From Microcystis elabens FACHB-917 (GTDB lineage Bacteria; Cyanobacteriota; Cyanobacteriia; PCC-6307; Cyanobiaceae): 64,000 nucleotides of DNA. The position numbers were made by a program, and so were the translations under genes. Where the stretch lies: contig NZ_JACJSZ010000005.1 of assembly GCF_014698445.1 (NCBI RefSeq), positions 62,001 to 126,000 on the forward strand, written 5' to 3'. Shown here piece after piece: positions 53,825 to 55,675 of this stretch; positions within the stretch are counted from its first letter, which is position 1, and each line of letters opens with the position of its first letter. The notes below the pieces were generated by a model. The model worked only from the letters and a program-made list of their open reading frames with translations, did not search any database and was not told where the DNA came from.

Positions 53825-54310
53825 ATGCAATGTCCCTCCTGCCAACACACCGACAGCCGCGTTCTGGAATCAAGGGCCGCCGATTCCGGGCGCAGTGTGC
53901 GGCGGCGCAGGGAGTGCCTCAACTGTGATTTTCGCTTCACCACCTACGAACGGGTCGAGACCGTTCCGATCACCGTGGTCAAGCGCAACGGCAGCCGGGA
54001 AACCTTCAACCGCAGCAAACTGCTGCACGGTCTGCTGCGGGCCTGCGAAAAGACCGGTCTGGAGCCGGCCCGTCTCGAGGCGGTCGTCGACGACATCGAA
54101 CTGGCCCTGCAGCAGCGGGTCGGCCGGGAGGTGAGCAGCAACGAGATCGGGGAGCTGGTGCTCCAGCGCCTGCGGGAGATGAGCGAAGTGGCCTATGTGC
54201 GCTTCGCCTCGGTGTATCGCCAGTTCCAGAGCGTCAGCGATTTCGTGGCCACCCTTGAAGGGCTGGGAAGCCGCGGCAAGGCCAAGAACCGTCTGGCGGT
54301 GGTGGGCTGA
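53825..54310 (+). CDS. nrdR: Transcriptional repressor NrdR
   Basis: NrdR represses ribonucleotide reductase genes in response to dATP/ATP. The 161-residue protein has a zinc ribbon with Cys3, Cys6, Cys31 and Cys34 ([10 protein letters not shown]...ECLNC) and an ATP-cone domain ([20 protein letters not shown] to [11 protein letters not shown]). The ATG at 53825 fits the conserved MxCPxC start; a TTG upstream would add 6 residues. Short in-frame [10 protein letters not shown] is typical of the family. Confidence 0.95.
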
Positions 54311-54354
54311 GCGCGGCACCACTCCCCCAGGCATTCGGCCAGCCGGCCCATTGA

Positions 54355-54524
54355 TAGAGTGTCCTGATCAGCAACAAAGCTCCGCATCATGTTAATGCTT
54401 TTTAACGCATAAAAGCAGATGTCCTGCGGAAACTGTCTTTTGTGGCCTTATGCGGCACAGGTCGGCATCCCTGAACGACGGCAAATTGGCACTGCGGAGC
54501 TTCGTTGCTGATCAGGTAGAGTGT
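54355..54524. mobile_element. MITE-like element with 24-bp inverted repeats and 8-bp target duplication
   Basis: The target duplication TAGAGTGT stands at 54355-54362 and 54517-54524. Between them is a 154-bp element (54363-54516) whose ends pair as CCTGATCAGCAACAAAGCTC plus CGCA (left) and TGCGGAGCTTCGTTGCTGAT plus CAGG (right), 23 of 24 bp complementary. Inside are smaller inverted repeats CGCATAA/TTATGCG (54406-54412, 54448-54454) and GTTAA/TTAAC. There is no coding capacity. It is visibly richer in A/T than the flanks, which supports recent insertion. Confidence 0.85.
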
Positions 54525-54598
54525 TAGATCGGGTGTGCGCTGCAGGCGGGCAGCGACCCCGTTCCTTCGCACTGCCACCGGCAGACCGCCCCAGCTCC

Positions 54599-55675
54599 AT
54601 GACCCTCACTCCTTCTTCCGAAGCCGACACTCTCGAAGCCCTCACGCCGATCAGCAGCGAGGAGGCGGGCGACATCGAGGCCGGCAGCGATCTCGATCTG
54701 GCGATCCCGGAAGAGGTGCCCAGCGCCGACGACTCCAGCAGCCGTGTGAGCACACGGGACGGCGACGGTGTGGGTTTCACGCTGGACGAGTTCGCGGCCC
54801 TGCTCAGCAAGTACGACTACAACTTCAAGCCGGGCGACATCGTCAACGGCACCGTCTTCGCCCTGGAATCCAAGGGCGCCATGATCGACATCGGCGCCAA
54901 GACGGCCGCCTTCATGCCCCTGCAGGAGGTGTCGATCAACCGTGTCGAGCACCTCTCCGATGTGCTCGAGCCCGGTGAGGTGCGCGAGTTCTTCATCCTC
55001 AGCGAGGAGAACGAGGACGGCCAGCTCACCCTCTCGGTGCGTCGCATCGAGTATCAGCGCGCCTGGGAGCGGGTACGCCAGCTGCAGAAGGAGGACGCCA
55101 CGATCTACAGCGAGGTGTTCGCCACCAACCGCGGCGGCGCCCTGGTGCGGGTGGAGGGCCTGCGGGGCTTCATCCCCGGCAGCCACATCAGCACCCGCAA
55201 GGCCAAGGAGGAACTGGTCGCCGACTTCCTGCCGCTCAAGTTCCTGGAGGTGGACGAGGAGCGCAACCGCCTGGTGCTCAGCCATCGCCGGGCCCTGGTG
55301 GAACGCAAGATGAACCGCCTCGAGGTGGGCGAAGTGGTGCTGGGCACCGTCCGGGGCATCAAGCCCTACGGCGCCTTCATCGACATCGGTGGTGTCAGCG
55401 GTCTGCTGCACATCTCCGAGATCAGCCACGAGCACATCGAGACCCCCCACACCGTGCTCAACGTCAACGATCAAATGAAGGTGATGATCATCGATCTCGA
55501 CGCCGAGCGGGGCCGGATCTCCCTCTCCACCAAGGCCCTCGAGCCGGAACCGGGCGACATGCTCAGCGATCCCCAGAAGGTGTTCGACAAGGCCGAGGAG
55601 ATGGCGGCCCGTTACAAGCAGATGCTCCTCGAACAGGCCGAGGACAACGAACCGATGGGTGTCTCCCTGGAATGA
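54599..55675 (+). CDS. rpsA: 30S ribosomal protein S1
   Basis: S1 recruits mRNA to the 30S subunit. The 358-residue cyanobacterial form has an acidic N-terminus and three S1 domains: about residues 83-150 (KPGDIVNGTVFALESKGAMI), 170-230 (GGALVRVEGLRGFIPGSHIS) and 245-315 (VGEVVLGTVRGIKPYGAFID). The ATG at 54599 is used; the longer open frame would run into the MITE flank. A 154-bp element lies 75 nt upstream of the start, so the promoter may sit inside or next to it. Confidence 0.95.
   Translation: MTLTPSSEADTLEALTPISSEEAGDIEAGSDLDLAIPEEVPSADDSSSRVSTRDGDGVGFTLDEFAALLSKYDYNFKPGDIVNGTVFALESKGAMIDIGAKTAAFMPLQEVSINRVEHLSDVLEPGEVREFFILSEENEDGQLTLSVRRIEYQRAWERVRQLQKEDATIYSEVFATNRGGALVRVEGLRGFIPGSHISTRKAKEELVADFLPLKFLEVDEERNRLVLSHRRALVERKMNRLEVGEVVLGTVRGIKPYGAFIDIGGVSGLLHISEISHEHIETPHTVLNVNDQMKVMIIDLDAERGRISLSTKALEPEPGDMLSDPQKVFDKAEEMAARYKQMLLEQAEDNEPMGVSLE

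Follow-up and report, generated by a model that had tools for sequence, protein, structure and literature searches.

The 64-kb stretch of DNA that we analysed (hereafter the window) carries, between nrdR and rpsA, a recently active MITE of 154 bp (54363-54516, unstranded), and this element has landed at the 5′ edge of the cyano-S1 leader that precedes rpsA. We are highly confident that it is a transposase-less passenger with an IS1595-family partner IS in the same genome, the transposase of which most likely moves it. MITEs with an IS1595-family partner have already been published, and the kind of element is ordinary; it is the landing site that makes this insertion interesting. The 8-bp target contains the hexamer TAGAGT, part of a block that, by its conservation among relatives, looks like a putative −10 element of rpsA, and the insertion has left one copy of this hexamer on either side of the MITE.

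The architecture of the element is confirmed. Its terminal inverted repeats of 24 nt, at 54363-54386 (forward strand) and 54493-54516 (reverse strand), are complementary at 23 of 24 positions (96%), and they are flanked by identical 8-mers, TAGAGTGT at 54355-54362 and an exact match at 54517-54524 (both unstranded); the first-pass annotation had described both features correctly. A scan for the same architecture (an exact 8-bp direct repeat flanking 20-bp inverted arms with at most 2 mismatches, over a span of at most 400 bp) recovered this structure once in the 64-kb window and not at all in 50 random windows drawn from a first-order Markov model. The report of smaller inverted repeats nested within the ends stands only in part: a palindromic CTGATCAG lies within each arm, but a repeat finder returned no second inverted pair inside the element, and further internal pairing is seen in the predicted RNA fold only. 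The MITE encloses no complete open frame of 60 aa or more, consistent with the earlier view that it lacks coding capacity. Its upstream neighbour is the transcriptional regulator nrdR (53825-54310, forward strand; TIGR00244, 208.9 bits), and downstream lies rpsA, which encodes the 358-aa 30S ribosomal protein S1 (54599-55675, forward strand; NF005639, 638 bits). The distance to rpsA given in the first-pass annotation also holds when counted from the right duplication, the end of which is separated by 74 nt from the rpsA ATG (54599).

The genome from which the window comes (3.68 Mb in 121 contigs, with the window on contig C67) contains at least 14 copies of the MITE, each 154 bp long and 95 to 100% identical to the window copy; this count is a lower bound from 40 scored candidates among 50 found at first look. 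The search for copies elsewhere, which had been proposed as a check, therefore favours a MITE. Both flanks can be read for 13 copies, of which 11 have exact 8-bp target duplications, the duplication of copy L015 matching at 7 of 8 positions and copy L010 having none; copy L017, at a contig end, was left out of this count. The 14 copies represent 8 distinct sequences that differ at 15 of the 154 columns, and five copies are mutually identical. The single mismatch between the two ends (columns 14 and 141, invariant across the 14 copies) is common to all of them, and the founder must therefore already have had it; copies L015 and L021 bear two further changes each in an end. Six of the 14 insertion sites lie within long open frames that we followed up, 10 of the 12 side pieces of these frames being searched against Pfam. 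Matching domains were recovered on both sides of the element in a zinc alcohol dehydrogenase (L013) and an IS66 transposase (L016), while a type I restriction specificity domain (L019) and a ferritin-like domain (L012) were each recovered on the one side searched; the L011 and L014 sites had no Pfam match on either side.

Where might the transposase come from? The first-pass annotation had argued that the element would need one in trans and had proposed a search for a full IS with the same ends, and both points are borne out by a candidate: an IS1595-family IS whose ends, nearly the same as those of the MITE, are present in the window's own genome and which occurs whole in congeners. In the own genome, 23 other places (13 left ends and 10 right ends) share the end sequence and have a different interior. 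All but one of the 23 are found no more than 560 bp from the end of a contig, a clustering to be expected if a repeated IS interrupts an assembly. Compared with the MITE left end, each of the two IS ends, left and right, shows one difference in 24 positions. Eight left-right pairs of IS ends have the same 8-mer across the contig gap, which indicates that those IS copies carry 8-bp duplications, and paired plus unpaired ends imply 13 to 15 IS insertions in the genome. The left piece reads MEDPRVAQNKVQYQEGF, and the right piece matches PF12762. No whole IS was found on any one fetched contig of the own genome. The transposase frame is open in the left and right pieces, its middle being absent from the assembled contigs; because about 120 bp of the IS middle is missing there, the intact transposase is seen in a relative only.

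Three congeners hold the whole IS or a diverged relative of it, 1050 to 1051 bp in length. That of L064 has DNA 97 to 98% identical to the own-genome pieces compared; that of L065 is 85 to 86% identical to these pieces, and that of L066 is 68% identical over the right part. The left-piece query in these comparisons began at IS position 101. The 8-bp duplications that can be read are TCGCTAGA in L065 and TAGCGTTA in L066, and the right flank of L064 is too short for such a reading. By its profile matches, the 327-aa transposase frame of L064 (PF12762, 112.5 bits; PF12760, 49.8 bits; NF033547, 193.3 bits) is an IS1595-family protein with a zinc ribbon and a DDE domain; a search of this transposase type against solved structures gave no match. 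The excerpt of PMC8101967 describes IS1595-family elements as having one transposase, with an N-terminal zinc ribbon and a DDE_Tnp_IS1595 domain, and usually 8-bp duplications, and it divides the family into the groups ISPna2, ISH4, IS1016, IS1595, ISSod11, ISNwi, and ISNha5. The partner IS resembles this description in its zinc ribbon, its DDE_Tnp_IS1595 domain, and its 8-bp duplications, whereas the window MITE departs from it in having no transposase.

The MITE and the IS also choose the same target, a palindromic site of the form YCA-W-N6-W-TGR (11 MITE sites and 8 IS sites). Counted by half-sites, position −1 is A in 17 of 22 for the MITE and 15 of 16 for the IS, position −2 is C in 15 of 22 and 13 of 16, and position +1 is A or T in 21 of 22 and 16 of 16. 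Since MITE and IS agree in their ends, in duplication length, and in the choice of target, mobilization in trans by the IS1595-family IS of the same genome is the most economical reading of these sequences and most likely the correct one. An origin of the MITE by internal deletion of the present IS is not supported, as only the ends match: the 106-bp MITE interior matched neither the assembled IS pieces nor, at an E value of 0.01, the congeners with a whole IS. Such an interior does not exclude MITE status, since MITE interiors are often, not always, IS derived, and published MITEs can have the borders alone in common with their partner (excerpt of PMC3852290).

Several other IS sequences were seen in this genome and its congeners. 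An IS1595-type copy at L039:1-559 (contig C52) runs into DNA common to other IS loci from IS position 460, and another at L041:1885-2030 (contig C34) does so after a 46-bp end; the 501-aa frame that adjoins the latter resembles, by eye, an IS66 transposase. A second, different IS1595-family transposase frame of 311 aa (NF033547, 162 bits) lies at L043:1396-2331 on contig C74, which is not among the contigs with MITE or IS ends. In two genomes of the same genus, G292 and G243, several contig ends have an IS end that is 92 to 96% like the own right end, and a related IS seems to have expanded in these genomes too.

Within the genus, the MITE is confined to the window's genome, 1 of 42 searched. 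None of the 41 others carries it, all candidates having been scored in 40 of them and 20 of 35 in G292; nine gave short matches, all to the ends with the exception of one 23-nt interior match in G187. The 399 other genomes of a 400-genome family sample likewise yielded no MITE, with two candidates scored per genome. We used the nrdR-rpsA region as a query to read the insertion site itself, and it matched 39 of the 42 genus genomes, the own genome included. For 29 of the other 38, the DNA was retrieved, and it gave 16 close alignments and 2 distant ones (L109 and L110); the junctions left unread belong to 11 genomes without an rpsA-side anchor and 9 that were not loaded. No insert is present at the nrdR-rpsA junction in any of the 18 aligned congeners, and the 16 close ones read, with few exceptions, CCATTGATAGAGTGnnnGATCGGG uninterrupted, the 8-mer duplicated in the window being a single site in them. 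The comparison of this gap among relatives that had been suggested thus reveals an empty site. With the intact duplication, the 95 to 100% identity of the other copies to the window copy, and the absence of copies from 41 congeners, the earlier proposal of a young insertion is supported.

Broader searches with the 24-nt MITE core found nothing in genome_contigs, from which own-genome records may be left out, and one match in viral_contigs, an IMG/VR record (L113) that carries one MITE copy. Since this record is identical over 2154 bp to the own contig C35 (L020), the match is not independent; L113 could represent a stretch of prophage or have been called viral in error. The MITE matched no phage or plasmid record. 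The IS end sequence without the MITE core is present in Cyanobium sp. FGCU6, in FGCU52, and in three metagenome-assembled genomes.

The host element whose 5′ edge was hit, and which is no part of the transposon, is the cyano-S1 leader of Rfam (RF03151), matched at 54512-54592 (forward strand) with 34.5 bits, below the gathering score of 39.9. The first 5 positions of the match lie in the MITE end, the two model helices are located 3′ of the insertion, and the match ends 6 nt before the rpsA ATG. Of sixteen congener sequences (L084 to L099), 13 match at an E value of 0.01 or better and one exceeds 39.9; the congener scores run from 32.3 to 40.1 bits, which places the window score within the congener range. 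Because these scores fall mostly below the Rfam gathering cutoff despite good conservation, annotation pipelines would miss the leader in this genus. Under stricter filters, RF03151 was found in 14 of 145 genomes of the class, all of them from the window's own family. Rfam matches to IRES_Bip in rpsA, also below the gathering score, were taken as chance. Limited literature searches turned up no report of the cyano-S1 leader and no experimental data on the start of its RNA, and the excerpts of a paper on ribosomal leaders (PMC7247131) have no passage with "cyano," "rpsA," or an S1 leader.

What did the MITE hit at the 5′ edge of this leader? The first-pass annotation had supposed a possible effect on the promoter or the leader of rpsA, and the target can now be named more closely. 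The target is a block conserved in all 16 close congeners, with TAGAGT invariant in every one. Mean column identity across these congeners is 0.95 for the 8 bases before the hexamer, 0.62 from −45 to −9, and 0.96 for the 54 bases after it; the hexamer is preceded by TTGA in 15 of 16 (the exception, L097, has TTGG), and behind it come a G, three variable positions, GATC, and the conserved leader. A −10 element separated by a short spacer from a conserved leader would give such a pattern. It is conservation that carries the −10 reading, given that a consensus scan returned no sigma-70-like promoter and that neither TAGAGT copy has a recognizable −35. In 8 of 12 family genomes outside the genus, the block reads TAGAGT, TAAAAT, TAAAGT, or TATAGT. 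In the other 4 (L157 to L160, reported as one genus), it reads TAACAC or TATCAC, with TAGAAT 9 nt upstream (by eye), and such sequences do not fit a −10 element unless the promoter there has shifted. In the window, the duplication has parted the two contexts of the hexamer: the upstream copy (CCCATTGA-TAGAGT, 54347-54360, forward strand), our putative rpsA −10 region, keeps the native upstream context with TG-A before the hexamer, and the downstream copy (54517-54522, forward strand) keeps the leader and is preceded by the MITE end, in which CAGG replaces TTGA.

We tentatively prefer a scenario in which the upstream copy serves rpsA. The MITE would have inserted at a YCA-W-N6-W-TGR site, with 8-bp duplication, in the putative rpsA promoter, and the upstream TAGAGT, in its native TG-A context, would now drive the gene. 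Transcription would start at about 54366, in a GATC just inside the MITE left end, much as at the native site. The rpsA messenger would then be about 160 nt longer, with the MITE hairpin followed by an intact cyano-S1 leader, and its 5′ untranslated region would grow from about 72 to about 233 nt. This promoter step and the long leader that results from it strike us as plausible, at somewhat less than even confidence.

A rather less probable course, though still a serious one, is that the same MITE left rpsA to start from the downstream TAGAGT, or from a promoter made by the MITE right end, in which case the messenger would be of about native length and the insertion would have swapped the upstream promoter half only. 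Hexamer, spacer, and GATCGGG start region are all in their native arrangement at the downstream copy, and beyond the 8 bases that precede the hexamer the congeners show little conservation, so that much of the upstream sequence lost may not matter. The TTGA found in 15 of 16 congeners, however, is the very stretch that CAGG has replaced, and the consensus scan found no sigma-70-like promoter for a downstream start.

We consider it unlikely that the TAGAGTG block belongs to the cyano-S1 RNA instead of being a −10 element, in which case the MITE would cut short or shift the 5′ tail of a regulatory RNA. RF03151 does model the block positions as the start of the RNA, and TAACAC or TATCAC in 4 of the 12 other family genomes (L157 to L160) is not −10-like; yet the model leaves these positions unpaired, the hexamers of the remaining 8 genomes vary as in a −10 box, and in the congeners the block is separated from the conserved leader by G and three variable positions.

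If the upstream copy is used, as we tentatively prefer, the MITE would be transcribed ahead of the leader. The fold predicted for a 258-nt stretch gives the MITE a domain of its own, apart from that of the leader, although the P1 pairs of the Rfam model that lie innermost reach a probability of just about 0.15. In transcripts that end at 54600, the six innermost P1 pairs reach about 0.97 with the MITE and 0.75 without it; for those ending at 54620, the values are 0.15 and 0.02, and these probabilities also swing with the 5′ end of the transcript. By these predictions, the MITE hairpin is not obviously a trap for the leader. The predicted RNA fold of the MITE (−68.7 kcal/mol, z −7.1) might suggest a conserved structured leader, or an interspersed repeat with a host function, in place of a transposon, but any element with long inverted ends would fold strongly, and such a host RNA is ruled out by the empty sites in 18 aligned congeners and by the spread through the genome of at least 14 copies, which show target duplications and in some cases lie within genes. 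The first-pass annotation had named conservation at this locus in all relatives, with no copies elsewhere, as the pattern that would speak against a transposon; we see the opposite.

The closest published parallel by description is the ISHwa6 MITE of Haloquadratum walsbyi, which also has an IS1595-family partner and is present in 7 copies of 165 bp with 25-bp inverted repeats and 8-bp direct repeats (PMC3852290). It is like the window MITE in size, in its 8-bp duplications, and in its partner, and differs in its archaeal host; the excerpt of that paper does not mention insertion into a ribosomal-protein promoter. The MITE and IS ends described here begin CCTGATCAGC, whereas those of ISApl4 begin GGGG (excerpt of PMC12561309). 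The ISSoc2-derived MITEs of Synechococcus and other cyanobacterial MITEs are likewise IS derived but come from different IS (excerpt of PMC10969869), and the MITE treated in an excerpt of PMC11578231 belongs to IS1182. IS1595-family elements have been reported from the picocyanobacterium Synechococcus CS-601 (excerpt of PMC6337551), and a limited literature search found no report of a MITE in Cyanobium. The Correia elements of Neisseria are also MITEs that lie beside genes and alter their transcription, but they bring their own promoters (excerpt of PMC10969869), whereas here a −10-like hexamer of the host was duplicated.

The MITE and its partner IS are themselves of use chiefly for telling strains apart; what deserves an experiment is the promoter-like hexamer of rpsA in its duplicated state. 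The gene rpsA is expected to be essential. It is possible, though we hold the view with distinct reserve, that the −10 element of this essential gene was duplicated and the host survived an insertion into its core promoter, and that a mobile-element hairpin now precedes the S1 autoregulatory leader, changing or insulating the feedback by S1. The locus offers a natural experiment, with one strain that has a 154-bp hairpin between two apparent copies of the −10 element and near relatives in which the site is uninterrupted. The insertion would be of help in testing at which point the RNA of the cyano-S1 leader starts, and it illustrates that the target duplication of a transposon can preserve the very promoter element that it hits.
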